A DNA stretch of 64,000 nucleotides from Branchiostoma floridae. Lineage: Eukaryota > Chordata > Leptocardii > Amphioxiformes > Branchiostomatidae. The stretch is taken from NCBI RefSeq assembly GCF_000003815.2, contig NC_049984.1, positions 5,605,258 through 5,669,257 on the forward strand, written 5' to 3'. Shown here one piece after another: positions 7,340 to 47,753 of the stretch (its first letter is position 1; the number at the start of each line of letters is the position of its first letter). A program made the position numbers and the translations under genes. Under the pieces are notes generated by a model that saw nothing but the letters and a program-made list of their open reading frames with translations, had not been told where the DNA came from and made no database searches.

Positions 7340-8018
7340 CTTGAAAATATACGACTTGTAACGTTATGTATGTGCTAATCAAGTCACATACAGCGGTCAC
7401 ACTTGTGAATACCGATTGACTCAGCACTGTTAAATGACGACAATGTTCCTGCAAAGTCACAAAGCACCGTGTCGAGCGATGGATATAAACCAAGAGATGA
7501 TCAACAGTTTGTTTTTGCCCAACTGACAGATCAAAATTTTTCTAGCTGCAGACGACGAAAAACATGGTTTCAAAAGCACAATGAAATGTTAAAAAAAATT
7601 CTATAGCATCACCATTCCTCCTGAAGGAAAAATCCTGCGTCCAAGTCCTCTAAAATCCCCACAGAGTCTTGAATAAGCGAGGAAAACAGTACTTTTTGGT
7701 CGAGACGCGTTCACATGTTCATGGGCGCAGCCATCTTGGTTTGTCTGACGTTCCCGGTGCATTCTGGGGTATCAATACATTTCCAAGCAGATGTCATCTG
7801 TACTGTCGTCAACGGCAGACTTCATTTCTATGCCATATGGGCGTCTTTTTGATGGTTAAGTAGTGTCGTAAACTGGTCACAGCGGCGTGATAGTTTCTAC
7901 TCGCGTTTCTGGTCACTTATATCTCTACTAGTGTCCGTTGTTCGCCCTTTTCCCACAGTCAAGGCCGTCTTCGCTGTGTGCCCCCCTCCCACAATCTTTG
8001 ATTCACTTTCACTTCATT
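7340..8018. promoter_or_regulatory. Shared head-to-head promoter of MCAT and the ARMC10-like gene
   Basis: The start codons of MCAT (minus) and the ARMC10-like gene (plus) are 679 bp apart and diverge, so this interval must hold both promoters. At 7756-7772 there is a Staf/ZNF143-like site; its minus-strand reading TACCCCAGAATGCACCG is close to the consensus YWCCCAYAATGCAYYG. No clear TATA box was seen. The factor assignment is inference from the motif. Confidence 0.5.
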
Positions 8019-11158: not shown

Positions 11159-12784
11159 TTAGGTTCGTCTGTTTCGTGGCTTGAGTTCTTCAGCACAGCT
11201 ACGCAGAAGGATGCAAGGTTTCTGCTGTTGCGGGTTGTAGTACTCGTGGCCCTTGGACCAATCGTAACTCGCCGCGTACGCGAAGATGTTTCCGCGCGGG
11301 TCGATGGTGCACGCGGAGATGGGCTGGGCCAGCTGCTCCGACGTCTTCAGCTTGGTACGAGCGTCCTTGTCCCAGAAGCTGAACTTGCCATCAGACCCGG
11401 CGGTCGCCAGAGTCCCGTGGACGGGATGGAACGCTATTCCGTTCACAGCATAGATGTCCTGCACGGCGTTGTTACTGCCGTTCGATCGGTGACACTTGAA
11501 GGTGAAGTTATCTCGTGGGTTGGTGGCGTTCACGTAGTGGATGGCCACCCTCCCTTCAATGGATCCCAGAGCAAACCCCGTAGGGCGTGCGTCTTTGTCC
11601 TTGAAGATGGAAACACAGCGATGCTGGTACTTCAGGGGTGACTCTATTTTCTTGTACTCCTTTGGTTGGTTGTCCAGCTGATAGACGATGATGCCCCGGC
11701 CTGCGGTGCCCACCACAGCCATAGGGTACATGACGTCGGCACAGTAGCACCTCTCAGGCAGCTGGATGGTCATCATGGGGTTGGGGCTGCGCGTGTCCCA
11801 GAACTTCAGGGTCTTGTCCCAGCTGCCGGTCATCAGGCAGGTGTAGTTGGGGGCCTTGACCCAGTGTACGGTCTTGATGGGGGCGTCATGCTGGAAGAAA
11901 AACAAATTATTACTATTACTGTTTTGATTCTGTCTTCTCATGCGATTATCTTTTGTAGTATGTAGTTTTAATATTTTGTGACTTTTTTGAACCTTGATAG
12001 TAATATATTAAAAGGCATTGAGTAATATGTCAAAGGTGAAGGACCCTAACTTGTAATATAGTTTTTGGGCAGACCAACCTTAATGCATGTCCAGACATGT
12101 TTTGTATATGTCTCAGGGGTCACCTTGGACATATTACCCTGCAATGCATTTCGCTGTGAACTGAAACTCTTTATTTCGACATGTAAGTATTATTTTATCA
12201 TTTAATAGACCAAGAGTCCCCATATATCATGCAATAAATTTCATTCATTCATTCCTTATATCATTGGACCAAACCTCTTTGGACTAAGATTCCCTTTGTA
12301 TCTTGCAATAAATCTCATTCATTGAATCATTATTGCGAATCATTCATTCATTTATTGGACCAAGATTCCCTCCATGTAATAGTGTTCCACTCACCTGAGC
12401 CACCTGGATGCACTGGTTACTGTTGAGGTCCCAGCACTTGGCTTGTTTATCGCAGCTAGCTGAGAACACCTTGGTGCCGTCATCAGACCAGCACACGTCC
12501 AGCACGGGGCCCGTGTGCTTCTGTTCCGCCTTGGGGATGGTCTGTCCGTTCTGCTCGATCTGCCAGCAGCGCACGTTGTTGTCCCAGGACCCTGACACCA
12601 GGAAGGTGGTAGCGGTGGCCGCGGGGCTGAAGGCCAGCGCTGCCACGCTGTCGTCAGGCGGCGAGGCGACCTCGATGTCCTTCATGGGGTTGTGTGTGCC
12701 CTGGGTCTGCGCCGCTGGAGTGGAGGTCCCGCCGAACACGGACGTTCCGCCGAACGCTGTGCTAGTCTGGCCGAATATGCTCAT
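11159..12784 (-). CDS. RAE1: mRNA export factor RAE1 (Gle2), WD40 protein
   Basis: Two exons, 12784-12395 (130 codons) and 11890-11159 (TAA at 11161-11159), joined in phase 0 across CAG|GTGAGT ... TTCCAG; 373 aa, close to human RAE1 (368 aa). The start [13 protein letters not shown], with its FG-like Gly/Phe-rich stretch, is characteristic. WD40 blades follow, with repeated SWD, CWD and FWD ends such as [24 protein letters not shown] and [10 protein letters not shown], then a C-terminal [16 protein letters not shown]1 binds NUP98 at the nuclear pore and acts in mRNA export and the spindle checkpoint. It is divergent from CYB5R3 across a 302-bp shared promoter. The gene appears complete and intact. 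Confidence 0.96.
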
Positions 12785-13086
12785 GATAACGGCTGTGTCT
12801 CAAGTCTACAAAATCACAGAAAAACAGACCGTACGATAGCCCAAACTGAACGATATTGGAGCAAAGTGACGCTATCTGCCACAAATGGCAAGAAGATGAG
12901 GAAGAAAAGAAGAAATGTAGGTGTGCGTGTGTCCGTCTTGGCGCGTTCACAGTTCCCACAATCCTTGGCGCGCACTTCCTGTTGACCCCTTTTCACTTTG
13001 AACTTCGAACCCTTGATGACGCTAGGAGGCGTGACCCTGTGACCTTTCGCAGGATCGGACGACATCGGACGATACGACATTTGAGA
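12785..13086. promoter_or_regulatory. Bidirectional RAE1/CYB5R3 promoter with a ZNF143/Staf-like site
   Basis: Only 302 bp separate the divergent start codons. TTCCCACAATCCTTGG at 12953-12968 matches most positions of the Staf/ZNF143 consensus YWCCCAYAATGCAYYG. No TATA box is evident. Factor binding is inferred from the motif alone. Confidence 0.55.
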
Positions 13087-16000
13087 ATGGCGCTTCAGGA
13101 TTTCTCTCCCTTTCCCGTGCTTATAGCCGCGGCGCTTGTTGCCGTGTCGGCGGCAGTGGTCGGCTTTCTCTTCTCCGGCAAGAAGAAGGGCCCGCCGAGG
13201 GCTCTGCAGGACCCGACCGTCAAGTATCCCTTCAAGCTCGTGGACAAGGAGATCGTGAGCCACGACACCCGGCGGTTCAGATTCGCCCTCCCCTCTCCCG
13301 AACACGTTCTAGGTACATGTATCTGCATCGATCTGTATCTGTATTCAAGTATAACCGGTATAGCCGCCCTGTAATACAACCAGCTGTTGTCGCACCGCGT
13401 GTGTCACTGATAAATTATTTGACCGAACGGTCGCCCTGTCACACCTATGACCTAAATTGCACGTAGAGCTATCTAGTGAAGAGATGCTCCGAGTCCTACC
13501 AAGGTTTTGCTCCTGCAGTACATTGTGACAACAAGTTCCACTCTTAATATTTCTACCTGAAATTGAAAACAAGGGCATATCACTCTATCGCCCATATCAT
13601 GTCGTAGGGAAAAAGGAATTCTTGAACACCTCTGACACCTGTTGCAGCCCTCAGCCTAATGAACGCCCATTCCCTACATTTATAGTTATACAGTGTACAT
13701 ATAAATGTAGAGAATGGGCGTTCGTGAACTTTTATTTCAAAATGTCGAACACCACAGCTACAAACAAGCGCAAACGTCCGTGTTCGACGTCGAACACCTG
13801 CGCTCGCCCGCAGGTGTCGACATAAAACGGTTGCGATCTTTGAACGTTCTTCTACTCAGCATCATATAACGTTACCCTTCTTGCATAAAGAAGACATGAC
13901 TATTTTTTGTTCCCTTCCAGGTCTGCCCATCGGCCAGCACATCTACCTGAGCGCCCGGGTGAACGGCGAGCTCGTGATCCGCCCTTACACACCTGTCTCC
14001 AGCGATGACGACAAGGGCTACTTCGACCTTGTCATCAAGGTAGGGCACAAATTATCTGTCGCAAATTATATCTCTCTGTCAAATGCCATTGTAATTGGCT
14101 AAATTGGGCCTCCTGACCAGCTGAACCGCTGCAGTTGACATTGTTGAAGCTTGACCTTTAGTCAGGATAGTCAACAAAACACTTTCATCGTACTCGTGTC
14201 CCAACGTGTCATATCCTAACTCCGCATCTATGTTCTCATGGCCAATAGTAGTAATGACACAATGACTGACATATATTACATTAGTAGCACTTTACAAAAG
14301 AGAGACTGTATTATAACAGATGGAAATAATATGTCAATTGACAATGCCATCCATATTCCTGCAGTCTTAGTTTTTTTAATAGATGAGTATTATTGCGTTG
14401 ATTTCTTTGTTGTTGTTGTTGTAATACATTGTACCTTGTACAACTGTACAGCAATTAAGTTCATTCATTTACTCACTCACTCACTCACTCACACACACTC
14501 ACTCACTCACTCACTCACTCAATCACTCACTCACTCACTCACTCACTCACTCACTCACTCACTCACTCAATCAATCATTCATTTATTCCAGGTGTACTTC
14601 AAGAACGTGCATCCCAAGTTCCCGGATGGAGGGAAGATGTCGCAGTACCTGGAGAACATGCAGCTGGGAGACTTTATAGATGTGCGCGGGCCGAGCGGCC
14701 TGCTGGTTTACGACGGCAACGGTCAGTTCAGTATCAAGCCTGACAAGAAGTCACCGGCGGCGCAGAAGACAGCAAAGAATGTCGGGATGATCGCAGGTGG
14801 CACCGGTATCACCCCGATGCTTCAACTTGTCCGAGAGGTGTTGTTGTTGTCCTTGTTCAACATCTCTTGTAAATGCAGAAATTTTCGTGATGGTTTTGTG
14901 TTTGCTGTTTCCATGGTAGCCTCGTCACTGCAAACATAAAACCATTGCAAAAAGATGTATCCTGGTCACACGCAGTGGATGACAACCCTACTGCCTCAAA
15001 AAGGCTATGAGACTACACGTACCTTTACCTACCTTAAGGTTCATGTTCATTCTGGCAAGTTTTGTCTTGAGCCTGTGTGTGGAATTGTTTCTACATATGG
15101 GATTCTGTATCTGTGTCTTTATAGCCGGTATAACCGTCCTGCAACGTACTAGCTTTGCAAGCACACGGTGCAGTAGCAGCTGGTTATACTACACTGAACG
15201 ACCTGTCACACCTAACCTTTGCACATCTACCCTCAAGTTTTCTTTAAAACCATCCAGCAAAGATGTCCCTACTGTGCATTGAGAATCTGTGTGTTTTCTC
15301 AGGTGTTGAAGAATCCAGACGATGACACCAACCTGTATCTGCTGTTCGCCAACCAGACTGAGAAGGACATCCTCCTCCGACCGGAGCTGGAAGAGCTGGC
15401 CGACCAGTACAAGGACAGGTTTGTTTGTTTGTTTGGTTTGCATAAATGGTAAACAGCCTCAAGTACTATAGTTAAGACTGCCCAATAAGAACAATCTGGG
15501 GAACAATAAAATCTTGTTTAATCCGGGGAACAATGCAATTTGATTTTTGTGGACAGGTGGTTACTACAGACAGGATTCTTTCTTCTTGTGTCAATGGGAA
15601 AATGATCTGAGGGACCACCAATATGGTCAAGTGGTCTTTATGTAGAGATGGTCACTTGTCTGTAGTACATGCCTCGTAAGAGAGAAGACTAAGTTTTGAT
15701 CCACTCATGTGGGAAGGACTCTTGCTCTTTTCATTTTTATCTGAATCAAGTGAGGAAATCAGTGTGAAGTGCTTTTTCAAAGAGCACATGACAGGGGCCT
15801 GCTAGGCTTTTGAACCCCAAACCTTTAGTAGATTCTAAGTAAAAAATACCTGACCACAAGACCACCTTGCTACCCTATATATAAACAGGTTCAAGCTGTG
15901 GTACACCCTGGACCGTCCGGAGGATGGATGGAAGTACAGCGCCGGTTTCGTGGATGACACCATGCTATCGGAGCACATGCCGCCACCCGGTGACGACACC

Positions 16001-25554: not shown

Positions 25555-26041
25555 TTACCTGCTCAAATACCTGGTCAAAGGAATGGCTGCCACGATGCTG
25601 ATGACGTACAGGATCATCAGACACAGCCTGTCCAGGACCTTCGCCAGCAGGGTATAGTCGGACACCACCTCCTCGTTCTTTACTGCCTTGGTCAGCTTCT
25701 TCATCTCGTCCTTCAACTCGGCCCTGCCAATCTTCATCTCGTCCTTCAACTCGACCATGCCAATCTTCACAGCTTGGACCAGGTCCTCGCTTCCTTTCTT
25801 CACAGCCTTGGTCATCTCGTTCTCTCCCGAGGATCCAGTGGACCTACGTCCTGTAGGAGGCTTAAATGCCCGTCTGATCATCCTGGATTTTGCACCACCC
25901 CACAGCCATATTTCAGGGGCGCTGCCTCCATCCTCAGCCACCATGTCATCGTCAAGCGCGATGTTGGTCCGGGGATCGTCAGCGGCCGCGGTACCCGTGC
26001 TGGCTTGCTTGTCCTCTGTGAGATCTCCCAGAAGTAATACC
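25555..26041 (-). CDS. Channel exon: TM3-TM4 loop and TM4
   Basis: Begins after TTTACACAG (phase 2, codon AG|G) and ends TRYLSR-stop. The cytoplasmic loop is about 110 residues, acidic then basic, with two near-repeats of MVELKDEMKIG / RAELKDEMKKL that look like an amphipathic helix, as the MA helix of Cys-loop receptors. TM4 is about LCLMILYVISIVAAIPLT. Confidence 0.85.
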
Positions 26042-29000
26042 CTGTGTAAATAGAAAAATTGATGTTCCTCACTGTGCAAACAAAGCATACCACAGCACGT
26101 GTACGCCTGTAATCTGCATGAAGGATTTCTCTGTTTTAGAAAGTGGCTATCGATTTCCACAATTTCAGTCGTTCCTACGAAAACAGGGAATGGACTCCGT
26201 GACTCACTACTCCATGGAAATCTCTACGCGATCTTCAGGAATTGCCAACAAAACATCAATAAGTAAGCTAGGCTGCAGGCAAAGGTTCAAGCTTCTTTGG
26301 TGAAAGTGATGAGTAGAATTCGGTGTTACGTCCTTCGTAGTATGGTATATTTCTTACTTCACGACTAAGACTGAAAGAAATACACCATCAAGAAGCTTAA
26401 GCGACGTAAATGGAATCTTTCATCATATGATCCGATGCAACAGACGAATTTTCAGTAATCTCCAAGCAGGTCCTATGGTAGCATTAGTATCAAAAGCTGG
26501 CAGAGGACTCCCTTTGGCCGGCTATCCTCCTTGGCCAGCTTTGATACTATCTTATGGCTCCGTAGGGTGAGCTTGGAGAATAAATTTTCAGTACCTTGCT
26601 GTGTAGCGGAGGAAAATAACCCTCGCCAGTGGAGACAGGCTCCCCTCTTTGCCGTGAATGAAGATGACGGCCATGGTGAGGAAGAGGAACAGTCCCATCA
26701 GGCCCATGCACACAATGATCAGCGTGGCTGTAAAATTACAGATAATAAATCCAGATTAGACAAAGGTAGTAAGATACGCGAAATAGCAATTACTGAAGCA
26801 ACTGGGTATGCTTTTGGAAACGGTCAGGCGTTTCAGTTCAATGATTGCTTGCAAAATGGCATGGTTTAAGTGAAGTGCTAGCACCTAGCATGCACGCAGG
26901 AAGATCTGAGGCTCTGGTCCTCAGAGGAAGGGCATGTGTGGAGTTCGGAAGAGTGTAGCAGAAGTGATGACATCAAGAGAAGAAGAAGCACCTAACACTC
27001 ACCGAAAAATGGCAGAGCCCCCTTGACAGGAAGAACTTCCGTTACAAACACGAGAGACACGACCATGGAGAGCTGAATGGTCACTCCGAAGGAGATCCGG
27101 TCTCCCTCTCCTATGGGCATGATGAAGGTGATGGTCATCAGCACAATCAGGATGATGCAGGGTCCAACAGTAGTGGCGATGTGGAACGTCGGGATCCTCG
27201 ACAGTTGTAGGGCAAAGCACGCCTCCGTCTGATTTTGTTCGAATATCTTGTCACTCCGGTACCATTCTCCCTCCGCTATTGGAGTGGAGAACGAGCCACA
27301 AGGATGGCGCACATCGGATGTGGAGCCTCCCTCGTGGCATTCTGTAATTAATATACAGTACATGTAGGATGTCTCTAAATGTCTAAAACTAGAACGGCGA
27401 TGACGTTTAGACATCCCGGTTATACGATACGCCCAATAACAATTACTCAAGCAACTGGATATGATTTGGAACATCAAAATGGGGAAAGCAGATTTTTCCG
27501 GAATCATATCCTGTTGCTTGAGTAATTACTATTTGGCGTCACACTAGAACATATCGCTACCAGAATATGACACAGGACATATTGACGCCAATGAAGATTT
27601 GGTCAGTCCAGAATTGCTATTTGGCGTCGTTCCAGAACATTCCTACTGTAATAGTACGCACGTCACATTGAAGCCATTTTAGTCCGACTCCAGAATTACA
27701 ATTGAAAGATCTATTAAACGTTATAATATTGGGAACATGTCTCTTTCCATTCAGTGATCTGCAGTAATGAAAGCTATCAGTCATATAAATAATTTTGAAA
27801 CACTTGACGAAATAGGATAGACCAAATTTGATAGTTCCAACTCCACAGTTTTTTTGTGCATTGCCAATGTTTAGAAACACATCAGAGTTCTCGGGAATAT
27901 CCGAAACCCTTACGTATGGTTTGCTCGATTGCCGTGGTTGCAGAAAAACAGACTTCGCATTCCATGGTGTCTGCGGGGAAGAGGAAGGGGTTGGCTTCAC
28001 ACACTGTGGTGGTCAGGGTCTCCACTCTCCACTGGACCAGACCGGTGCTGCTCACACGGACCGGCACGTCCTTGGGTAGTCCTTGGTGGAGGGGATTGGC
28101 ACTGGAAGGGTGATCACAAAGAGATTCCTGTAACTTTTTATATTCGTTTGTTTGTACTGCATACCCGGTAAAATTGCCTCATGGCGTAGCACACCGGGTT
28201 TGTACTGAACAGTACAAGCTGCATATCTGGACAGATTTGCAGATTCACTCTCATCGGAATGGAACCTCACGCCTTGCGATGACTCCTCATGCCTCATGAC
28301 TGTGTTGGGTTCTTTAACGTACGTGTTTCCGGACGTCCTAGAAACGGCTCTAACCAAAGCTAGGTACTCATTTGCACATGATGGAAGTGCCTTTCCCAAG
28401 GGCATATCATCTGGGCCTGTCAGAGGTTTTGACATTTTCTCTTCGATTCAAGCATGAAACGCATCTTGCTTTTGACAAAAGATTTTTGCCGGTGCTACCA
28501 TTCAACCGTTTGGTTTGCATGGATGCATGCATGGATCGGTCAATTTAACCAAATTCTTCTTATAGCCCTTCTATACGCACGATTACGCAATGGAGTTAGC
28601 GTGGCCGAGCGGGGTGGATATAGCTATTTGCTTTTGCAGCCGTGGGTCGTGGGTTCGAACCCCACTTGTAACAATTTTCTTTGTTAGACAAATCTCATGT
28701 AATGTGTTTTTAATAGAAGACAGACCAATTCAGAAATTCGATGTTTAAAAACTCTTTTTTTCATGTGATTTTGTTTAACATCCAGGCTTTTTCCAAAATA
28801 CGCACCGGCCAGCTTTTTTCAGAAGCTTTCTTGTTTCAGCTAAAAGGGTTGAAACCTTGGTCAGGTAACGCATACACGTTTATTCTAAAATGGAGAAGAT
28901 TTAATGAATACTTTAAGTTATCTTAATCTGCAGCTGGTTGATTGAACGAAGCGTTCCACCTACTTCTCTGAGAGAAAGCNNNNNNNNNNNNNNNNNNNNN

Positions 29001-32000
29001 NNNNNNNNNNNNNNNNNNNNNNNNNNNNNNNNNNNNNNNNNNNNNNNNNNNNNNNNNNNNNNNNNNNNNNNNNNNNNNNNNNNNNNNNNNNNNNNNNNNN
29101 NNNNNNNNNNNNNNNNNNNNNNNNNNNNNNNNNNNNNNNNNNNNNNNNNNNNNNNNNNNNNNNNNNNNNNNNNNNNNNNNNNNNNNNNNNNNNNNNNNNN
29201 NNNNNNNNNNNNNNNNNNNNNNNNNNNNNNNNNNNNNNNNNNNNNNNNNNNNNNNNNNNNNNNNNNNNNNNNNNNNNNNNNNNNNNNNNNNNNNNNNNNN
29301 NNNNNNNNNNNNNNNNNNNNNNNNNNNNNNNNNNNNNNNNNNNNNNNNNNNNNNNNNNNNNNNNNNNNNNNNNNNNNNNNNNNNNNNNNNNNNNNNNNNN
29401 NNNNNNNNNNNNNNNNNNNNNNNNNNNNNNNNNNNNNNNNNNNNNNNNNNNNNNNNNNNNNNNNNNNNNNNNNNNNNNNNNNNNNNNNNNNNNNNNNNAA
29501 TACACCGTGTTGTATGTCTATATTTATGTCATACCCACCTGAGAAAACCACTGTTTTGATGCGAAATGCGCCAGAAGTTGAACAAATTTGTTGCCCTCGA
29601 AAAAAATCAGGTATTCGAACTTTCGATGGCGCCGTACTCGGCCCACTCGAAACAGTTCGATTTATTCGAATGGAGCCCGTGTGATAAGCCCGGGCCGTAC
29701 GGAAAGTTATCATCCGGTCCGGAACACCCGTATCGAACGTTTTCGCGTCACAGGTATGACATAAATGGTAATATAGCAAGAATCAACAAATATCAATGCA
29801 ATTTCTTGATACAAAATAAGGCAAATCAATTGTACAACGCTAATATAACTCGAAATCATAATGAAATGAAATACGAAATGGAAATTTGCATACCAATGTT
29901 AACAGAAAAAAGACAATAAAGTAAGTAAGTTTCAGACCATGTGGTATTCTGTTGTGTAGATAGTTTTAAAAGTAGAGATGGATGATACTGGGAGAAATTG
30001 TGTACCATAGGCTACAAAGCTTTGCAAACTTACGAAATCGATTATCAAAGAAGCAAGAAGCTGCTCGTTCTTTTCATCCTGAAATTAAAAGAAAATCATA
30101 CCATTAATCTTGTTTTGCACTGATGCATTTTAGCACCCATAAAGACACGATAATTTTACTTATCAATAACTTTTTTGGAAACGAAAAGGATCTTATGATT
30201 TCTCAGATAAAGACTACTTACCAAGTTGACGATTTGTTCCACTTTCCCCGTGAAATTGATGGTGATATTTTCTTCAGGTGCCAGACTCGCACTGTAGATC
30301 CCCAGTAGCTCCTTCTGCAGCCGTCGCTTAAAGTTTACTAAACAGAGAATGGCCAAGAATATTTATAAGAAAATGAGGTTAAAATCCGGTTCCGTACAGG
30401 TAGCCTGCCACGTTTTGCTATTAATTACAATGTGCGTATGGATTTGTTTCAATTTTTTCTTGGACATTGTGGTAGCAATTTCATCCGTGTATGGTCGCAA
30501 TCTGAAACTTTTTGGCGCGTACATGCATGTTTAAAGGGGCATTCCACTCCAGAAGGGAGTCGTGTTTTCCAATAGATAACGTGTCAATGAATACATAATC
30601 AGCCGAATTTTGTGGAATTCACTTGGGATGGATTACGTGATGTGTGTTTTATAAAACAATAATGACACTCACTCCCCATGCAGACCCTACCCATGCATTC
30701 CCTATACGCATAGACACTTTGTTTATGGTACATATTTTCGGAATAAATAAGGTACGCTAAGCACACCGAGAAGGCAAATTGCTCATAAGATAGCAAAGAA
30801 TACAAGAACAAGACGAGATTTCTTAGGGAACCTGAAATTAATTTTGTAACCATACCTAAAAGTTTTGCATTGTATTCAGCCATAGGATTAATTCAATTAG
30901 AGGGTACTTGGGGAGTTTAGTGAAAGACTGAATGCTTTTGAGGCATGTGGAGCAACTGAGTACTTTATCGTATAATGTGAAGTATTATGCAGTTATCAAT
31001 TCCTGAAATTGATATCTATCGGAAAATAACACTCTCGTGTGGAGTGGAATGCCCCTTTAAAGATAGGAAATGCATGTGCAAAATAGCATACCAAAAAGTT
31101 ATGAATGACCTTTGCCGGCCGCTAGGAGCGCGATTTTAGTCAAGCTATTCTCATAATAGTTTAAAAAACGTTAGATAATGAAGTTGTGGAACCATGAGCT
31201 GTGCAGAATTGTAAAGCTTAGGGCAAAGACTAAACACCTGAACAAGTGGGCATGTTGTATTCCCAGACGCCGACGGACGAGGAGTTCCCCTGGCGGCACC
31301 TGACTTCCCGAGGATAACCGTACTCCAGCATGTAGCCGTCGTTACATGTGTACGTCACTTTCTCTTCCAACAGGTAGAACCTCTTGCTTGGAGTTCTCTT
31401 GCCGTAGATCGGAGGCCCCCTGTCTGCACAGCTGACGGAATCTAAATGTAGTACAATAGAAACTTGAGAGATATCGGAAACATTATGAAAATCAGACAAT
31501 CAGTTAAGAATGAGTTAAAGGACATGCAAAGCAGCAAGAAAAGAGAAAAAAACTCTTTTCGAACAGTCCAACACCTGGAATGCCCAACACCTGGAATGGT
31601 TAGAAACTATTATGTTATTAGATATGTGTTCACATTGTACATGGACATCACTTGTGTACATTTATGTACATGTATATGTACATAAATGTACACAAGTGAT
31701 ACATAAACTTAACCTCAAACAGCAAAGAAGTATGATTTAACGCCATTGTATTTTTCAAAAATCGCAAAAAAATTAATGAGCAGAAAAGTTGGCATGACAG
31801 TTAATGTAATGATGAATTATTAAGGTGTACAGTAGCACGTCTTTCCTTTTGACGAGACATTGACTTACTGCACGGAATGACGTCACACTCCTCCTTGCTA
31901 CCGTCTTCAGTCAAGCAAAATGGCCGCTGGAGACCGGTAGGGTTGCGGCAGTAGTTCTTGTCCAGGTTAGCCCAGGGGTACTCTGTCTTGTAGTTATCAG

Positions 32001-34930
32001 CTGACCACTCAAGACACTTTGCCCCGGATGTAGTTGTACTCCATGTTCCACGGTAGTTCATGCCATTGCCATGGTAACAGACTGGGGAAAAGAAGGAAAG
32101 AGAATACACATTTCTGAATGAATGTCTCTACGAGGAGATTCTGGTTCCGGTGCTCACAGTACTGAGGCACGACGTTTATAACTCATAATTTAAGTAGGTT
32201 AATATGATTCAAAAGGTGTAAAACATCAATCCTTTATAAACAACAGACCCAATATTTTTGATAAAAAAGAGGCTCCGTCATAACGGTTATTACATTATGG
32301 TGATAAANNNNNNNNNNNNNNNNNNNNNNNNNNNNNNNNNNNNNNNNNNNNNNNNNNNNNNNNNNNNNNNNNNNNNNNNNNNNNNNNNNNNNNNNNNNNN
32401 NNNNNNNAAAAAAATCATGATTGAAATTCTGATTCCCACCTTCTTTGTCCTCACTGGTTGGTTCCGGGTTCCAACAGCCGTGCTGTGGAGACGGGAACAG
32501 CTCACATGGCGGCAGCAGGTCCCTCATCAGGGCTGAACTCATGTTGAACACTTCCTCACACCAAGAACGGCACGGCAGCTGCTGCCTGCCACTAACGGAA
32601 AGAACTACATTCAGTACCATTCGATAAATATCATGAGGATATACACATACATCACAATGTGATGTTGTCGGCTAATTTTTGCATCAAGTTACCAAGGTAC
32701 TAGTATTACGCATACTTTGGAGCAAAAAAAACAAATACCTAGAGAATGAATGCATCAATGGCTGATGGTCAATATTCCTTGATGAAAAATAACTGATTCG
32801 TGACTATACGCGCGGCCGCGACTAGGTGAGCGTTCAGTACAAGCGGATTCTCAGGTACTCTAAGCAGATCTACTGGAGGCAAAACTGCATCCAAGGGCTA
32901 AATACTATCGAATTGACACCGGAACCAATTGGATGGTGTTTGACTATGCCTTGCCTGCGGTAGATCTTCTTCAGGAGATTAGTCCAATAGTTGTATAAGA
33001 TACTTACACACATGAGGTCATGGTGCTTGTCAAAGGACAGTCGAAATGATTCTCTTTATTCACATTGCGGCATCTCGGGAAAAGTACAGTAGACACGAAT
33101 TCTTGTAGCTCCGGATGGTGTTTCCCCGCGATGCTGTAGGAACTGTTGAGAAGCTCCACAGCGGAGGAATTCCGAATCTCGCCGAACGTCGTCTGGTTCA
33201 GCGGATTTGGTAACATGGTGAGTCTGCTTCTGATCTGGAAATCCTTATGAATTCTCGAGCACACTGAAAATTGAATCAAACGGATTCCATGTCATTCATC
33301 CACGTCGCTTTGAAGTTATCTCCAGGTAGATTTACCGGTGCCATAATGATAGTATCAAAGCTGGACAAGGAATATAGCCGACCAAAGGGAGTCAGCCAGC
33401 TTTGATACTTATGGCACCGGTAAAAACTGGGGCCGAGGGTTGGTTTCATATACATGTACTAGAGCTCTTCTCGGAGTTTGAGCTGGTCAACATCCGGTGT
33501 TTCTTTGCATGTTTGTCAGCAGACCCTTGTGACTTTCTCGGGGAGAAGAAGTTTTTATAATGAAATGTTTCAGTACTTCTCCTGCGAGTATTCGATGCCA
33601 TACTGCATGTATTAATTGTGATGTCTGCCTACNNNNNNNNNNNNNNNNNNNNNNNNNNNNNNNNNNNNNNNNNNNNNNNNNNNNNNNNNNNNNNNNNNNN
33701 NNNNNNNNNNNNNNNNNNNNNNNNNNNNNNNNNNNNNNNNNNNNNNNNNNNNNNNNNNNNNNNNNNNNNNNNNNNNNNNNNNNNNNNNNNNNNNNNNNNN
33801 NNNNNNNNNNNNNNNNNNNNNNNNNNNNNNNNNNNNNNNNNNNNNNNNNNNNNNNNNNNNNNNNNNNNNNNNNNNNNNNNNNNNNNNNNNNNNNNNNNNN
33901 NNNNNNNNNNNNNNNNNNNNNNNNNNNNNNNNNNNNNNNNNNNNNNNNNNNNNNNNNNNNNNNNNNNNNNNNNNNNNNNNNNNNNNNNNNNNNNNNNNNN
34001 NNNNNNNNNNNNNNNNNNNNNNNNNNNNNNNNNNNNNNNNNNNNNNNNNNNNNNNNNNNNNNNNNNNNNNNNNNNNNNNNNNNNNNNNNNNNNNNNNNNN
34101 NNNNNNNNNNNNNNNNNNNNNNNNNNNNNNNNNNNNNNNNNNNNNNNNNNNNNNNNNNNNNNNNNNNNNNNNNNNNNNNNNNNNNNNNNNNNNNNNNNNN
34201 NNNNNNNNNNNNNNNNNNNNNNNNNNNNNNNNNNNNNNNNNNNNNNNNNNNNNNNNNNNNNNNNNNNNNNNNNNNNNNNNNNNNNNNNNNNNNNNNNNNN
34301 NNNNNNNNNNNNNNNNNNNNNNNNNNNNNNNNNNNNNNNNNNNNNNNNNNNNNNNNNNNNNNNNNNNNNNNNNNNNNNNNNNNNNNNNNNNNNNNNNNNN
34401 NNNAAAATTCCCCACCTTTTTCCGCGGGGGGGGGTTCCAATTCCCAATTTTTCCTGAGGGTCTTTAATAGGGGGAATTCCATAATTCCGGCCGAATTCCC
34501 ATGTTTTCCGGTGATAAATAAATTTCGCACGGGAAAAAAAAAACTCCCTTGGGCCAGGGGAGCCACTCACGCATATAGTAACTTCCCAAAATTCATGACG
34601 TTCCGTCAACCCCTTCTTGGGTTATTCCCTTTAAAACCGACGCCTGCAGTTCCAAAACTAGCCGCAAGTGGGCCCAAACCTCTACCACTGTCTCTCTGTC
34701 TCATGAGATTTCTCCCATTTAAAACTCATGGGCACAGCTTGTTTAAAACATGAGATATTAAACTCGGAAGTTCCGCTAAGGTGCCGTAACATGCCGCTAG
34801 GGGGCCAATTTTTTTTCAGGAAGACCTACCCACATACGGAATATCAATACAATATATCCAGCCGTTCTTGAGTTATACTGGTCTTCTACACACACACACA
34901 CACACACGCACGCACACACACACACACACA

Positions 34931-34998
<68 letters not shown>

Positions 34999-36433
34999 CA
35001 CACACAAACACACACACACTAACACACAAACGCTACCGAAAAAGGTTAACCCAACCTTACCGCAGGCTGGCACGTCACACGGCTCCCATCTCGCGTTGGG
35101 GTCCGTGGTGTAGCACCAGACCTCGTGCCAGTTGCCAGTATTCCGGCAGTAGTTCTCCTCCAGTCCCGATGCCGGATTGTCAGCAGGTACATAGCTGTGT
35201 CCATGCGGTGTCTGACTGCCCCAGCGTTGGCACGTCTTGCCCGTTTCGGTCACAGAGACTGTTCCTCGGTAGGACGCCCCATTTCCTACAATACAGTCTA
35301 AGGCGAGGCCTCAGGGTACAAAACAGACAAACGCGGGTTACACATCATAACTGCATTGTTGATTAAACGTATGATGTCTGCTAACATGCCAACACACAAT
35401 AATGAAGTTTATTTGCAAGTTCGTGTTTGTTTTTGTTATCATTTACGAATGCTTTCAATTCCTCTGAGAGATTTGATACTTTGGAAAATATAGTAAACGC
35501 TATTTTACTTCAATTTTATAAATATATCAGCAGTTGTGTAAAACCGTGGAAGTATGTGTGGAAGGCGTGGAATATGACATTTCTAATAGATCATAATCAT
35601 GTTATTAGAATCAGTTGTAAATATTTGGAAGTATGGATTAAGCGGAATATTATATACTTAATAGATTCTAATTACTTGCCATTACAATCATTTGTAGAAT
35701 TTTGCACTTTGAATTATTTCACTTTAAATGTTACAGCCATGAAAATCCCACCACAAGGGAAGTTAGATTGTCGCCATGCCTTCAATTCTTTTTACTTTCG
35801 ACATCATTTAATTTGTCTAATAGCTAAGAGATTTCACGCTTTCCTCGGTAGTATTAATCTTTGACAACATTTATGATGTGGACTTTGATATTTCTAATAA
35901 TCACTAAGTAATGTAATCATTGAACCATTATTTAATTATTCGAAACAGGTTGTAATGGTTCAGTGGGCTGGGAAGGTTGATAGGCGACTGATGATACCAA
36001 AACTAAGAGCGACAACATGCCTCCCCACTGATGCATGCAAAAGGACACGATCGCATGATATTAATAATATGTTTACTATGATAATTACGCCGTTGCACAC
36101 GATGCATCTATTCAAAACGGCCCGCCTTCACAGAGAAGCGCCACAGATCAAGGTTATTTGGTTTTCAACGTTTGTTGAAAGGACCAAAAGATTACATTTT
36201 GACAACAACAAAAAAGTAGGACTTTTAAACTTGATAAGGATCAGAGGACTGATCGAAAGCTTGTTGGTAAGCGCTTTATTTTGTGTACGGATGCAGGATC
36301 CTAAAATGGCAACATAATGTTGACTACCGTCACAGATGAACTTACGTTCAAAAAAAAAAGTAGAAAAAGACGAGCAAAAAAGAGTGTTAAGATGGAGAAA
36401 AAGGACCGGCTGTTCTCTTGAACAGGGAGGTGT

Positions 36434-36464
<31 letters not shown>

Positions 36465-37701
36465 GGGGGCCAAGGGGGTGCCCCCCAAAAAAATTTTGGG
36501 AAGGGAGGGGGGCCCCCCCCCCCCCAAAAAACAGGGGGTTTTTTTTGAGGGGGGAAATTTCTTTAAATCAAGCTAGTCTAACCCAGGAAATGGCGTTTCA
36601 AAAGGCCAAAAATTTTCCCGGGGAAAAATGCCCCCGGACCGCCCTTGGATTTCCCCCGAGCAGCCCAAAGAAACATTTCAGGGTAGGCCCCGGGTTCAAA
36701 ACTTTTTGTGCCCCCANNNNNNNNNNNNNNNNNNNNNNNNNNNNNNNNNNNNNNNNNNNNNNNNNNNNNNNNNNNNNNNNNNNNNNNNNNNNNNNNNNNN
36801 NNNNNNNNNNNNNNNNCGATACTTTCTGTGCCCCGACGTTGTGACCTTGGGAAAGGCACTTGGCACTACTTTCCTCACTTCACCCAGGTATAAAAATGGG
36901 TACCTGACTTCGGTTGGGGAGGTAAAAGACTATCTTTACCTTCTGTCTGTACTTTGTGTGTGGCACTGTTGAAATAAGTTACTAACTTGAGTTCAGTGCC
37001 ACATTGTCCTCGTCTGTCTCAAAACAAATAAAAAATACTATTCAATATATACTATTCAATGTTAAATTTCTGATCTTAGAGAAACATTTGATAAAATGTT
37101 GTAGAAAGTTATAGAAGACCCCTTACATAAACTACAGCACGTACTGGTGCATCCCGCTGTCTGTAAGCATAGCTGGCAAGGTGGTCTTGCTGTCAGGGTT
37201 AGTGACTAAGAACTTTAAGGTTCTGGGTTCGAATTAATAGCAGGTTCTAATCTTGTGCCCTTGGAGAAGGCACTTTACACACATGTCCCTATTTGACTCA
37301 GGTGAAAATGAGCTAGTAGTTTCTGTTAGAGGGTCCTCTCGAATGGGACATAAAGCCCCAAGGACAGCCACACCTCGAGCACGTTAAAGAACCCACTTAT
37401 CGAAAAGAGAAGGGGCCCTTCCTGGTGTGTGGGGATCAAAGCTATCGGTCCAGCCGTAGGTGTGCGTCACATTTGACATTTCCAAACCGGGGCCCGATCG
37501 GGCTGTTTGGTGTAGTTTGGTGTCCTATTTTTCTTTCCCCAAAGCTGCCCCTATTTGAAAATGTGTCTTAGGCCTTGCGCAACTTTAACGGTTATGCGGA
37601 ACAAACAAAGATAAACAAAAATAGACTTTGCAGGTACATTTCCTACCAGAGACAAACAGCAGACAGCAGGCGGCCCCAGCGATGACAAGTTGGCCTCTCA
37701 T
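25555..37701 (-). CDS. Mosaic Cys-loop receptor: signal peptide-kringle-Frizzled-kringle-sushi-ligand-gated ion channel
   Basis: Twelve exons on the minus strand: 37701-37647, 35297-35061, 33263-33008, 32591-32440, 32081-31869, 31441-31238, 30337-30222, 30078-30034, 28127-27914, 27341-27003, 26727-26595 and 26041-25555. The first eight total 1278 nt and the last four 1173 nt, both multiples of three. Junction phases agree throughout (1,1,2,1,1,1,0,0 then 1,1,2). Visible product is 816 aa: a secreted-type leader, two six-cysteine kringles flanking a Frizzled-like CRD, a four-cysteine sushi domain, then a nicotinic-type ligand-binding domain with a Cx13C loop, and TM1-TM4. The segment between LASLIIDF and ESLCDHPSS (loop D/A tryptophan region) is absent and likely falls in the gap 28980-29498; further exons could hide in the gaps at 33633 and 36717. 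Predicted to be a plasma-membrane cation channel with a long adhesive ectodomain. Ligand unknown. Transcript evidence is needed to prove one gene. Confidence 0.8.
26456..26582. mobile_element. Mutator-like MITE, TIR TAATCTCCAAGCAG, 9-bp TSD
   Basis: TAATCTCCAAGCAGGTCCTA at the left is mirrored by TAGGGTGAGCTTGGAGAATA at the right, with an inner TAGTATCAAAAGCTGGC / CCAGCTTTGATACTA pair. Both flanks carry the 9-bp direct repeat AATTTTCAG. Sits in the receptor intron next to the TM3 exon. Confidence 0.85.
26595..26727 (-). CDS. Channel exon: TM3
   Basis: Starts after TTTTACAG in phase 1 (G|CC) and ends at CAAG|GTACTG in phase 2. Encodes ATLIIVCMGLMGLFLFLTMA followed by VIFIHGKEGSLSP, the expected TM3 and start of the cytoplasmic loop of a nicotinic-type subunit. 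Confidence 0.9.
27003..27341 (-). CDS. Channel exon: loop C region, TM1 and pore-lining TM2
   Basis: 339-nt exon, phase 1 at both ends. The pre-TM1 part (EGEWYRSD, then ACFALQLSRIPTFH) aligns with the end of the nicotinic ligand-binding domain. TM1 is HIATTVGPCIILIVLMTITF and TM2 is GDRISFGVTIQLSMVVSLVF followed by VTEVLP. The conserved 9' leucine, an acidic -1' (Asp) and 20' glutamate are present with no Pro-Ala insertion, predicting cation selectivity. No vicinal CC pair in loop C, so not an alpha-type subunit. Confidence 0.92.
27914..28127 (-). CDS. Ligand-binding domain exon with the Cys-loop
   Basis: Starts after TTACAG in phase 0 (ESLCDHPSS) and ends phase 1 before GTAAGG. Contains VRVSSTGLVQW (nicotinic TGxVxW strand) and the signature Cys-loop CEANPFLFPADTMEC, exactly 13 residues between cysteines, with FPAD where nicotinic receptors have FPFD. 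The following loop B segment (CFSATTAIEQTI) lacks the usual tryptophan. Confidence 0.9.
28225..28440 (-). repeat. SINE copy in the receptor intron
   Basis: On the minus strand CCCTTGGGAAAGGCACTT then ATGAGTACCTAGCTTTGGTT and ACGTTAAAGAACCCA, a body shared with copies at 36825 and 37180. The open frame across it is not a channel exon. Confidence 0.6.
28595..28673 (+). pseudogene. tRNA-Ser/Leu-like pseudogene or SINE head
   Basis: Has an excellent A box (GTGGCCGAGCGG) and B box in a perfect T-stem (GTGGGTTCGAACCCCAC), but the acceptor stem pairs at only about four of seven positions (GTTAGCG against TTGTAAC) and no convincing anticodon stem is seen. Probably not a functional tRNA. Confidence 0.55.
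28980..29498. other. Assembly gap (519 N)
   Basis: Unknown bases. By position and phase, the missing ligand-binding-domain exon(s) of the mosaic receptor are expected here. Confidence 0.95.
30034..30078 (-). CDS. 45-nt ligand-binding domain exon (nicotinic exon 3 equivalent)
   Basis: Exactly 45 nt between AATTTCAG and GTAAGT, phase 0 at both ends, encoding DEKNEQLLASLIIDF. Nicotinic receptor genes have a 45-bp third exon beginning with the same D-E-K/R-N motif, so length, position and sequence all agree. Confidence 0.92.
30222..30337 (-). CDS. First channel exon (N-terminal helix of the ligand-binding domain)
   Basis: Begins after TGTTTAG in phase 1; the split codon with the sushi exon gives Val. 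Encodes VNFKRRLQKELLGIYSASLA, then PEENITINFTGKVEQIVNL, the alpha-1 helix and first strand of a nicotinic subunit, with a predicted N-glycosylation site (NIT/NFT). Ends phase 0 before GTAAGT. Confidence 0.88.
30530..31061. mobile_element. Non-autonomous element with 21-bp perfect TIR
   Basis: TTTAAAGGGGCATTCCACTC(C) at 30530-30550 is exactly inverted at 31041-31061. 532 bp, no recognisable transposase. Lies in the intron that separates the sushi exon from the first channel exon. Confidence 0.85.
31238..31441 (-). CDS. Sushi/CCP domain exon
   Basis: 204-nt exon, phase 1-1. Four cysteines in CCP order (SVSCADRGPP; VTYTCNDGYML; EVRCRQGNSS; MPTCS) plus the conserved tryptophan (VGVWEYN). Such symmetrical exons are the classic unit of domain shuffling. 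Confidence 0.93.
31647..31700. repeat. Perfect 25-bp inverted repeat with 4-nt spacer
   Basis: ATCACTTGTGTACATTTATG plus TACAT at the left is exactly mirrored at the right. Lies in the intron between the sushi and second kringle exons. Could extrude a cruciform; a mini-palindrome element. Confidence 0.9.
31869..32081 (-). CDS. Second kringle domain exon
   Basis: 213-nt exon, phase 1-1. Six cysteines in kringle order with typical motifs CYHGNGMNYRGTWS, AKCLEWS, NYCRNPTG, RPFCLTEDG, EECDVIPC. Confidence 0.95.
32440..32591 (-). CDS. Frizzled-type CRD, C-terminal exon
   Basis: Phase 2 at the start (GT|T) and phase 1 at the end. Encodes GRQQLPCRSWCEEVFNMSS and DLLPPCELFP, then HGCW. The PCRSxCE motif is diagnostic for Frizzled cysteine-rich domains. 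Confidence 0.85.
33008..33263 (-). CDS. Frizzled-type CRD, N-terminal exon
   Basis: Phase 1 in (x|TG), phase 2 out before GTAAGT. Encodes CSRIHKDFQIRSRLTMLPNP through HHPELQEFVSTVLFPRC to TSTMTSC. The spacing of LPNP, PELQEF and FPRC fits a Frizzled CRD. Eight of the ten usual cysteines are visible across both exons, so it is divergent or an upstream piece lies in the 33633-34403 gap. Confidence 0.8.
33316..33428. mobile_element. Palindromic MITE core
   Basis: TACCGGTGCCATAATGATAG and AGTATCAAAGCTGG on the left are mirrored by CCAGCTTTGATACT and TATGGCACCGGTA on the right; related to the Mutator-like elements at 26456 and 47446. Confidence 0.65.
34404..34560. other. Low-quality sequence beside an assembly gap
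   Basis: Doubled homopolymers (CCCC, TTTTT, GGGGGGGGGG, AAAAAAAAA) bordering the 771-N gap look like poor base calling rather than biology. Confidence 0.6.
34889..35030. repeat. (CA)n microsatellite
   Basis: About 140 bp of CA dinucleotides about 30 bp downstream, on the minus strand, of the first kringle exon. Confidence 0.97.
35061..35297 (-). CDS. First kringle domain exon
   Basis: 237-nt exon, phase 1-1. With G from the signal-peptide exon it begins DCIVGNGASYRGTVSVTETG and has six cysteines (DC, GKTC, ENYC, EVWC, EPC, PAC), including the NYCRN and WCYTTDPNARWEPCDVPAC-type signature. Confidence 0.95.
35420..36330. other. Receptor intron 1, nothing recognised
   Basis: AT-rich intronic DNA with open frames but no domain similarity. 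36430-36716 is homopolymer-rich (long G, C and A runs) next to a 100-N gap and looks unreliable. Confidence 0.4.
36825..37420 (+). repeat. Two SINE copies in tandem
   Basis: 36825-36965 has GTGACCTTGGGAAAGGCACTT and GGTAAAAGACTATC-type tail. 37150-37420 has a tRNA-like head (GCTGGCAAGGTGGTCTTGCTG, then GGTTCTGGGTTCGAATT B box), the GGAGAAGGCACTTTACAC body and ACGTTAAAGAACCCAC. Same family as 28225 (minus). Confidence 0.65.
37647..37701 (-). CDS. Signal-peptide exon of the mosaic receptor
   Basis: ATG at 37701 opens MRGQLVIAGAACCLLFVS, a short basic n-region and hydrophobic core typical of a signal peptide, followed by G|GTAGGA in phase 1. Spliced to the first kringle it creates the expected kringle-leading Asp (G|AC) before Cys. 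The exon ends at 37647. Chosen because it is the nearest upstream phase-1 leader; transcript support would settle it. Confidence 0.7.
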
Positions 37702-39661: not shown

Positions 39662-42600
39662 TCATTCAAGGTCCCAGGGCCCGCTCTCGTACCCACGGTA
39701 CTTCAAACCCTGCAACGTCACTTCCAGAACTGCGCCATTCTTGTCATCGTCGTCCAACAACTTAACGAAGCCTTTCAACACGTCCGGAATTCTGAAACGA
39801 CACGAAATACAAGTCATTTGTTAGAATATTGGAAACCGAACAGGATTGCTTTCTACGAGGAGGTTGAAAAAAGAAATTTTCAACCTCCTTGCTTTCTAAA
39901 AGGACTGAAAGGGGCGATATATATACATCACATCAGAGATTATTGACCAACACTCAACCGAGGCGGGGGCCGATATAGCGCTGGCGTCACGCTTCCGTTT
40001 AGGTCACGTGACACATGCTTCGGATCATTTCAACTTGAGGAGGATCAGAGAACTGGTCGAAAGGTTTTTGGGAGCAGCTTTACATTGTATACGAAAGTGG
40101 CGTATAAATGTTTATGATAAGTCAGAGTTAGCAATTTCGGCTAAATTGCCGATCGCCAATTTTACGATATGACACGTGGCATGACAAAATGTTACTTGTA
40201 AACACGGGATAGGGCTTGTCTCGTGCCTTATGGAAGACGCCGTTACTCACTGAAGAAGGCCTCCCCTTTCGATCATGTCGTCCATTCCTCGCAGGTCCTC
40301 CTCGGAAGCTTTGAACTCTTCGAGCAGTGACGTGGCTGTAAACGACGGACACAGGGCGTTCACACGGACACCGTCCTTGGCGAACTTGTAGTCCATCTAC
40401 AGGCAAATCAAAAGCAGTTTCAGTGCTCAAAAATTCGATTTACCTTAGAATAACCGTAGAGTAAAACTCGTTACTACTGTGTCCAGAGGAAGTATCATCA
40501 TTACTAGCGTAAACAACGCTTGCGGCTAGCTGTGTGAAGGTTAGGTGTGATTTGACCATTCAGTGCAATGATATAACATATGATGATAAACACTCAAAGC
40601 TGCTCACATTTCTTTCGTTTGCGCGAAAAAATTTGAGAAGTTCTGTTCGCTAGATGAATTCAACTACATCCTAGGGGGAAATAACCCTTACAGTGTACAC
40701 TGAATAGGCAAAAAAATTTAGATATATCAAAGAATATGTATAGACCTTAGTACCACTTTGTAAATGATATTCTAGATGCATTGATGCTTATTCCTGGACA
40801 TTCGCGTATATAATGCAGATGCAGATACGTACCCCAAGGCTCTTTGTTAGGCCCACAACACCGGCCTTTGTAGCTGCGTACACGGGTGGAGGGAAGGCGT
40901 ACAGACCTGTGATGGGAGAAAACAATCATGACCATCACTAGTTGGTCCACTCGTTAGTCTTTGAAAGATGAAACAAGTAGAATCGGTATTATCTTCAAAC
41001 ATTTGCTGTGGAAAGACATCTTAAAACTCGTTGTACCTATTCTTGGAAACCATAAGGTTAACCCTTTATATAAAATGTTAAGTCTGCCACAGTAAACATC
41101 TGTCTGCTGTCGATGCAAGCCTTATAAATCCACTTATGCAGACATTTGAGTTATTCCGAAGAAAAACTAACATTTGGCGAAGATCATCATCATCAGGAGA
41201 AGGAAATTACGACGACTACCTGCCACAGACGCCGTGTTGATGATGAGTCCTCCTTTGCCGCCATTTTGTTTGCCCATGTAGTGAAGTCCAAGATGACAAC
41301 CTCGCACCACCGATACCTGGTGATGTAGAGTTAATAACAGATGAAGATTATTTGAGACTTCTTTTGCACAACCCGTTAAGTCTTACGTCTCGATGTCTAT
41401 CTAATATATCTTCCGCAAGGCTTATGACTGGAGTGCTGCTTCTCGATATGTGACCGATGTAGTAACTTGACTTGATGAAGATGGCTGATAGACATTGACA
41501 TGTAAATAGTGGAGTTACTGGTTGTGAAAAAGAAAACCCAATAACCTTTGTTCTTCCAACATGATAAAATTATTTTCGGAAAATTATTTTCGGAAAGAAC
41601 TGAAAATATTTTAGAACCAGTAATAAGTTAAGAGCTTAACTCGATCTTCTACAGGTCGAGACAGAGAAAAAAGAGCTGGTGCTATGTACTGTATGTGTAT
41701 TACGCTGCCCACCTGTAGTTGGACCCTTGAAACTCCTTATTATAAAAGTTGACGTTATAATAGAACTTACCAGATTAACGTTGATGCACTTTTCCCACTC
41801 AACTTCGTTCAGAATTCCAGCGTTGTTCACAACCAAATCCAGCCCACCAAAACGGTCCACCACTTGTTGGAACGCACCTAGCGCAAAATGAAGAGACAAC
41901 TTGTACTACCGAAGACGTTTTACAGCGCTCTCTGGCGGAATAGTACTATACGTGACCAAAAGATGCTATATACCTGCTCGATGAAGAAAATAAGGGCGAA
42001 AATGAAAAAAAAAATCATTGCAAAAGATATCTTCCTTCATCTTTTGTTGACCGATTCCGTGGTTAATGACTGTGGTTGTTACCTGCCACTTGTACAACTA
42101 CTGTTAAGTTATTGTTAAGTCCTGCTTGATGAAGAAAATAAGGGCGAAAATGAAAACAAAATCATTGCAAAAGATATCTTTCTTCATCTTTTGTTGACCA
42201 ATTCCGTGGTTAATGACTGTGGTTGTTACCTGCCACTTGTACAACTACTGTTAAGTTATTGTTAAGTCCTATTATCGACTTCAGACAGTGTACAGTACCC
42301 TCCAGTTGACCTTTATCCGTCACATCGCACAGAACAAACGTGCACATGTCGGCCCCGTACTTCAGGGCAAAGGCTGCCGCCGTTTCCTGTCCTATCGACT
42401 CGTTCGTGTCCAACAGCGCCACCTATAATAAAATTTAGTTATTGAAAGTGCACGGGTACACACCGGACGCTATCAATGATTATCAATGACATACATGTAA
42501 AGATCGTCAAGGTCATTCTGCTGGGAAGTTGTCGCACTGTCTTTTGTTCTGTCACAGCTTGAAAATCCCACGACATCAAAATCGCACGACGACCTGCGAC

Positions 42601-47681: not shown

Positions 47682-47753
47682 TGCGTTGGCCGGGAATCGA
47701 ACCCGGATCTACTGCTTGGAAGGCAACAATGCTAACCATTACACCACCAACGC
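47682..47753 (-). tRNA. tRNA-Gly (TCC anticodon)
   Basis: 72-nt cloverleaf on the minus strand. Acceptor GCGTTGG pairs fully with CCAACGC plus discriminator A. The D-arm TGGTGTAATGGTTAGCA, anticodon arm TTGCCTTCCAAGCAG (loop with TCC) and T-arm CCGGGTTCGATTCCCGG are canonical. Very close to vertebrate tRNA-Gly-TCC. No intron. It decodes GGA/GGG codons. Confidence 0.96.

Follow-up and report, generated by a model that had tools for sequence, protein, structure and literature searches.

Cys-loop receptors are viewed as plain neurotransmitter channels with only a ligand-binding domain outside the membrane. Here we analyse 64,000 nucleotides (nt) of the lancelet Branchiostoma floridae (NCBI RefSeq assembly GCF_000003815.2, contig NC_049984.1, positions 5,605,258 to 5,669,257), a stretch hereafter called the window. 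Its minus strand carries exons for kringle, Frizzled and sushi modules followed by the exons of a nicotinic-type Cys-loop channel, and our analysis supports a fusion of this modular phase-1 ectodomain, or head, to the channel in one gene. Nicotinic acetylcholine and 5-HT3 receptor subunits share with the window gene and its paralogs a ligand-binding domain with the C-x13-C motif, four transmembrane helices (TM1 to TM4), a cation-type TM2 and no insertion before TM2. The lancelet family differs from them in its head of about four to six modules, in the loss of the loop A, B and D aromatics and in a shortened loop C.

To our knowledge, octopus and squid chemotactile receptors have no kringle, Frizzled, sushi or lectin head, and none of MFRP, corin, Kremen, ROR and MuSK carries a Cys-loop channel. 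These latter proteins resemble parts of the lancelet head in combining CUB, LDLa and Frizzled (FZ) modules or FZ and kringle modules, as described for Kremen and MuSK in passages of PMC3927609. The expanded mollusc nicotinic-type genes share with the lancelet family a large lineage expansion, and a few carry dynamin, GAIN or other domains (PMC6896357, in part). No kringle, Frizzled or sushi head is named in the passages concerned, and the words amphioxus, lancelet, Branchiostoma and kringle are absent from its main text. An ortholog pair from Branchiostoma, 269420_PRF0, has a Neur_chan_memb domain in an architecture apparently unique to the genus; its other domains are not stated in the text concerned (PMC4967905, in part).

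Whether lancelet-specific domain combinations are real is disputed. Huang and others describe very high exon shuffling in lancelets with a bias to 1-1 phases and treat such combinations as real (PMC4284660, in part), whereas Banyai and Patthy (2016) regard them as often being prediction errors, possibly including a unique Branchiostoma combination with Neur_chan_memb (PMC4967905, in part). We found no description of the kringle-Frizzled-sushi-channel architecture in the one open-access library searched; most subscription journals and the predicted-protein databases lay outside the scope of that search, and automatic annotations may exist.

Head and channel in one gene

The genome searched comprises 513.4 Mb in 431 contigs. 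Among the 151 matches listed for the channel query, 64 channel places, the window included, have at least 41% identity in the exon for TM1 and TM2. Matches to other exons were excluded, as were 12 rows with identities of 35% or less, and the counts are of places, not of proven genes. Identity to the query is 64-79% in the main branch and falls to 41% at further places. Genome position searches located the first Frizzled exon (FZ1), the second (FZ2) and the sushi exon in that order, upstream on the same strand within 30 kb, at 41 of the 64 places. FZ2 and sushi alone were found at 2 places, sushi only at 14 and none of these at 7. Conversely, a channel lies downstream on the same strand for 42 of 43 places with FZ1 (within 30 kb), 44 of 45 with FZ2 and 58 of 60 with sushi. 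Among the 42, C8:9.517M has no nearer channel than that of the neighbouring copy, and the FZ1 places on C3 and C11 have their channel 26-29 kb away. A Pfam Frizzled search placed a domain within 15 kb upstream at 16 of the other 23 channel places, for a total of 57 of 64.

Such an order, seen at 41 of the 64 places, is not due to chance. An even spread would give 0.08 of 64 for the FZ1 query and 0.05 of 23 for the Pfam Frizzled query. Rows of ordinary Cys-loop genes had a Frizzled match within 30 kb upstream in none of 19 cases. This control combines the 12 rows at 35% identity or less with 7 rows of another channel search, some of them from the same gene, and was tested against the 43 FZ1 rows and 22 of 145 Pfam Frizzled rows, while the 16 of 23 count used 25 of the 145, picked from the contigs concerned. 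Some channel places may be allelic copies: the C256 and C8 loci are 98-100% identical and look like copies of one locus, and the C256 channel is 88% identical to that of the window.

Ten further loci were fetched besides the window, among which C3:9.27M consists mostly of unread bases in the fetched part and the fetched stretch of C17:6.03M stops within the channel. Local profile searches recovered FZ1, FZ2, kringle, sushi and channel on one strand in the window and in nine of the ten. The kringle that follows the Frizzled exons (kringle 2), assessed in the fetched loci, is present in all ten loci with readable heads, its match in C8 being cut at 68 of 78 positions. The kringle ahead of them (kringle 1) is present in three of these ten, namely the window, C8 and C256, and is outside the common core of the family. 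The earlier note on this DNA had found a real gene and had treated it as a single one; the gene has dozens of relatives, which differ in their outer modules. At C8:17308054-17308239, the cut kringle 2 match coincides with a lost cysteine, unlike in the near-identical C256; either the allele is damaged or the assembly is wrong there.

As an alternative, a gene for a secreted kringle-Frizzled-kringle-sushi protein and a neighbouring channel gene downstream of it could have been wrongly joined. In the window, 900 nt lie between sushi and channel, and lancelet annotation is error-prone, with wrong joining documented for another lancelet gene model (PMC4967905, in part). The paralogs argue otherwise. 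The sushi-channel intron measures 98 nt in C17:6.53M (C17c) and 124 nt in C14:10.65M, which is too short for a terminator, a promoter and a new signal exon and so rules against a separate downstream gene. It reaches 2275 nt elsewhere, and at all 11 of 11 loci it runs from GT to AG at the same phase-1 position; the splice borders of most other modules also fall at homologous positions across paralogs. An open frame with a hydrophobic stretch at 30602-30892, considered as a hidden signal exon in the window's own sushi-channel intron, was set aside because two paralogs hold only 98-124 nt there.

The two halves have also diverged together. Pairwise distances of head and channel correlate with a Mantel r of 0.84 (54 pairs from eleven loci, C8 and C256 included), a value reached in none of 5000 permutations. 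Over nine pairs, the ratio of nonsynonymous to synonymous change (dN/dS) ranges from 0.17 to 0.33 in the head and from 0.17 to 0.42 in the channel, so both halves are kept as proteins under purifying selection. Exon models free of internal stops were obtained for C14, C256, C6b and C16; the C14 model spans 11 exons and 628 amino acids from LDLa to TM3. These models are partly circular, since they were scored under the expected phase with stops inside exons disallowed. The 45-nt exon is unplaced in C256, C6b and C16 and the last exon in C14 and C6b, the modelled last-exon starts in C256 and C16 are doubtful (the exons being far shorter than the window's), the C256 model omits F5/8C and the C16 model was built without an LDLa search. 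In the C17:6.52M paralog, channel exon 1 has a GC rather than a GT donor (gcaagt, just after 6528389), which the modelling script could not use.

Several observations weigh against a family of fused genes. Profile searches gave no Frizzled domain at 7 of the 64 channel places, of which three have an upstream sushi exon and four neither module; C4:3.95M is among the four, and C2:14.71M does have a Frizzled domain. LDLa was not found by local profiles in C16 and C4, and Frizzled exon 1 ends earlier in C6b, C10 and C17, so this border is not conserved. In C17c, where the sushi-channel intron measures 98 nt, the model breaks frame after channel exon 1, whose donor is GC, with the 45-nt, 110-nt and last exons unplaced. 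Head and channel trees agree in their main groups and differ in placing C16, C14, C4 and the C10 and C17 loci. Position, phase and short introns are all that links the outer modules to the gene.

The recurrence of the order on many contigs, the short introns, the matching GT-AG positions and the correlated divergence of head and channel lead us to reject the adjacent-genes artefact, which we regard as highly improbable. The earlier note had read the locus as one fused gene and had named as grounds for splitting it a stop with a poly(A) site after the sushi exon or a separate signal-peptide exon just ahead of the channel; the 98- and 124-nt paralog introns and the joint evolution of the halves contradict such a split. 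The repeated finding of the order at separate loci, the shortness of some introns and the joint divergence of the halves depend on no gene model and argue that at least one lancelet-specific combination is real.

Exons and modules of the window gene

All exons of the gene lie on the minus strand, from 37701 to 25555, in consistent order and phase and with GT-AG borders where both ends are readable. Every exon listed earlier, from signal peptide through kringle, Frizzled, kringle and sushi to channel, was re-found there with matching phases. The signal-peptide exon (37647..37701) runs from the ATG to a phase-1 donor (MRGQLVIAGAACCLLFVS) and has a hydropathy peak of 2.74; together with its 5' flank and donor it matches the C8 paralog at 89% over 157 bp. 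Kringle 1 (35061..35297, phase 1-1), shared by the C8 and C256 paralogs, and kringle 2 (31869..32081, phase 1-1) match Pfam Kringle at E 2.2e-26 and 4e-18, and the sushi exon (31238..31441, phase 1-1) matches Pfam Sushi at E 1.1e-4, above cut-off, which bears out the two kringles and the sushi domain proposed previously. Between the kringles, the Frizzled cysteine-rich domain (CRD) occupies two exons, the first at 33008..33263 (phase 1-2, donor gtaagt) and the second, with the motif PCRSWCE, at 32440..32591 (phase 2-1; 152 nt, as in C256).

The channel begins with an exon for the N-terminal helix of the ligand-binding domain (30222..30337, phase 1-0), whose C256 homologue aligns to alpha7 from residue 2. 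A 45-nt exon follows (30034..30078, phase 0-0; DEKNEQLLASLIIDF), equal in length in C14. The third channel exon, 110 nt in paralogs, falls within 28964..29498; all of it lies inside an assembly gap (28980-29498) except the final 16 nt, seen at 28964-28979. Next come the Cys-loop (C-x13-C) exon (27914..28101, phase 2-1; 188 nt, as in paralogs), an exon with the shortened loop C region, TM1 and TM2 (27003..27341, phase 1-1) and the TM3 exon (26595..26727, phase 1-2; 133 nt, as in paralogs). The last exon (25555..26041) encodes the intracellular loop, TM4 and the stop. A 33-nt unit, repeated 2.2 times at 25698-25769 within this exon, gives the intracellular loop a charged repeat (VELKDEMKIGRAELKDEMK). 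The Cys-loop exons with C-x13-C and TM1-TM4 described in the earlier note are present in the window.

That list of exons was right for the visible ones and incomplete, as two assembly gaps conceal more. Besides the gap in the channel there is one of 771 nt at 33633-34403. Window positions 33630-33376 align at 96% to the C6:5.71M paralog, starting at the donor of that paralog's LDLa exon. Since these are the first called bases after the gap, the gap ends at the LDLa donor, and an LDLa exon thus ends at its low edge. C8 and C256 are the two paralogs with a kringle 1 of their own, and in both of them an F5/8C and an LDLa exon separate it from Frizzled. By analogy, the full order in the window is probably signal peptide, kringle, F5/8C, LDLa, Frizzled, kringle, sushi and channel, the F5/8C exon being the part expected inside the gap.

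In size, the 45-nt and 110-nt exons correspond to what we take to be exons 3 and 4 of nicotinic genes. All vertebrate nicotinic genes have their first three introns in common, though no lengths are stated in the passage concerned (PMC6354393, in part). The head seems to have been put in at the signal-peptide intron of a channel gene. That dozens of members keep a multi-domain head suggests that the Cys-loop scaffold was rebuilt by exon shuffling at this junction, and a single fusion followed by duplication is the simplest reading of the family's origin.

Outer modules vary between paralogs. On the window's branch, Pfam identified LDLa in five paralogs, F5/8C in two and a C-type lectin in two. 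Searches with local profiles further detected LDLa and F5/8C in both C8 and C256, a C-type lectin in C10 (weak) and at two C17 loci, and an extra sushi domain before the lectin in C17:6.52M. Stretches far upstream in C17:6.02M (SRCR, FXa_inhibition and F5/8C-like) may belong to another gene. A WSC-like stretch in C16, a lectin-like stretch in C10 and the far-upstream F5/8C-like stretch in C17 had no Pfam match, and no kinase, protease or Ig match to Pfam was obtained in the exons tested. In all, about four to six modules lie between the signal peptide and the ligand-binding domain. The distant-branch members C11 and C230 carry CUB, LDLa, Frizzled, kringle and sushi ahead of the channel (the C230 kringle by eye only). 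Their CUB, LDLa, FZ order is also that of MFRP.

The Frizzled domain of the window appears degenerate. Its two exons joined score 20.7 bits against Pfam Fz (E 6.5e-4) and fall short of the curated threshold, 32.1 bits, which the first Frizzled exon of the distant members passes (40.2 bits in C11 and 38.9 bits in C230). By eye, the window CRD keeps six of the ten usual cysteines, as compared with ten in the two distant members. Frizzled CRDs pair their cysteines 1-5, 2-4, 3-8, 6-10 and 7-9. By this pairing the four lost cysteines would make up two complete disulfides, one of them linking the first exon to the second, a pattern that again points to a single domain encoded by both exons. The Frizzled-like CRD reported earlier is accordingly present as two exons with the PCRSxCE motif (here PCRSWCE), but under the cut-off and short of four cysteines.

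The CRD of the C11 member, which has all ten cysteines, matched 43 solved sequences at E of at most 0.01, all of them Frizzled, sizzled or sFRP3; neither ROR nor MuSK occurs among the 43, the query being this distant member and not the window CRD. The earlier note's view of a ROR/MuSK-like head is not supported by these matches, and the family has a channel in place of a tyrosine kinase. We accordingly set aside a ROR/MuSK origin.

The same result bears on the idea that the Frizzled-kringle part takes up Wnt-type signals that place the channel, as MuSK or CAM-1/Ror act beside acetylcholine receptors. In favour of such a synaptic organiser, the worm receptor CAM-1, of the Ror family, controls where nicotine-sensitive receptors are placed at synapses, and vertebrate MuSK is bound by Wnts (PMC4237178, in part). 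The family CRD, as judged from the distant member, matched other proteins than ROR and MuSK, the window CRD is without four cysteines, and a role in sensing or recognition would better suit a family with so many copies, dozens in all, and with such varied lectin-type modules. We consider this role quite improbable.

Both module types are abundant elsewhere in the genome. Dense Frizzled-type arrays, representing other expanded Frizzled-domain families, lie away from the counted channel places on C3 (2.02-2.07 Mb, 11.82-11.83 Mb and 12.86-12.88 Mb), C4 (10.19-10.23 Mb) and C290. Kringles are hugely expanded: the 150 candidates scored, among 528 first-look candidates, were all above cut-off.

The window also contains neighbouring genes. 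Upstream of the signal-peptide exon, an open exon at 39665-39820 (minus strand), with a stop near 39663, reads as the last coding exon of the next gene; it is short-chain dehydrogenase-like by eye and had no Pfam or NCBIfam match. On the other side lie the end of an AMP-binding enzyme (2115-2513, plus strand), an acyl transferase domain (6539-7363, minus), an armadillo-repeat protein (7932-9005, plus), WD40 propeller exons that are RAE1-like by eye (11162-12799, minus) and an FAD-binding oxidoreductase (13728-14099, plus). ARAGORN predicts a tRNA-Gly (tcc) at 47682-47753 (minus).

Channel half and proposed function

Pfam channel profiles were run on the C256 paralog, the window channel being interrupted by a gap. 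The joined C256 channel matches Neur_chan_LBD (PF02931) at E 3.3e-29 and Neur_chan_memb (PF02932) at E 1e-6, both above cut-off. Its best matches among 195 solved sequences are nicotinic beta, alpha4 and alpha7 (E 2.8e-30 and weaker), followed by 5-HT3A (E 2e-25). In the window itself, the Cys-loop motif CEANPFLFPADTMEC has two cysteines 13 residues apart and the loop proline, with equal spacing in paralogs, and the four transmembrane helices give hydropathy peaks of 2.48, 1.97, 2.69 and 2.30. Alignment of the C256 channel to nicotinic and 5-HT3 structures revealed conserved pore positions and M1-M2 junction and no insertion before TM2. Conserved pore positions without such an insertion go with cation selectivity in the Cys-loop superfamily, and the pore looks cation-selective.

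The ligand site has changed. The loop D tryptophan is replaced by isoleucine or valine in 9 of 9 family rows, the loop A tyrosine is lost in 8 of 8, and the loop B tryptophan is absent from all 11 rows, among 14, in which its position can be read; ordinary Cys-loop subunits encoded elsewhere in this genome retain that tryptophan in 8 of 8 cases. Loop C is short, with a single cysteine, and is without the vicinal cysteine pair of alpha subunits, which beta-type subunits lack as well. Because the aromatics of loops A, B and D are replaced, we class the family as Cys-loop channels and not as acetylcholine receptors. On the sequence evidence the acetylcholine site is gone, and the channel would not be opened by acetylcholine in the usual way.

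We therefore propose a mosaic family of Cys-loop cation channels in which the head binds some target outside the cell and thereby gates or places the channel, a reading to which we assign a probability of roughly 0.6; the confidences attached to this and the rival explanations need not sum to one. Subunits would assemble as pentamers around a cation-selective pore, so that several heads per pentamer could bind an extracellular macromolecule or surface, such as a glycan, matrix, a microbe or another cell. Binding would then either gate the channel or place and cluster it for another ligand acting in the altered orthosteric pocket. Repeated duplication and exchange of outer modules would diversify the targets. 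The proposal is tempered by the fact that we infer target binding, gating and assembly from sequence, and by the prospect that some subunits may be non-conducting.

Overlapping with this proposal is the possibility that the channel senses small environmental molecules in its changed orthosteric pocket, with the head only anchoring or spacing it. The outer modules vary between members, suggesting that they are more than spacers, and the octopus receptors, as far as we know, are without a multi-domain head. The large expansion, the lost acetylcholine motif and the retained pore nevertheless parallel the octopus case, where nicotinic-like receptors give no response to acetylcholine and are without ligand motifs (PMC10338036, in part). 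We hold such a chemosensor to be possible, if rather doubtful.

A different reduction of the proposal would make the channel part a pentamerising membrane anchor only, and the protein a non-conducting adhesion or immune receptor. The degenerate agonist site and the recognition-type outer modules agree with this; the kept pore helix, M1-M2 junction and four transmembrane helices do not, nor does a channel dN/dS of 0.17-0.42, and we judge it decidedly unlikely.

If head-gated or head-placed channels are the right reading, a neurotransmitter-receptor scaffold may have become the sensor of another outside signal, and, should the heads gate the channels, the family would offer a new way of turning surface recognition into an electrical signal. 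More tentatively, and as a speculation that we think unlikely at present, the dozens of nicotinic-derived cation channels with exchangeable lectin, F5/8C, CUB, kringle and sushi heads might form an ionotropic recognition repertoire, in which microbial, food or self surface molecules are bound and answered with a cation current. Such a repertoire would fill a role that in vertebrates is given to separate immune or adhesion receptors.

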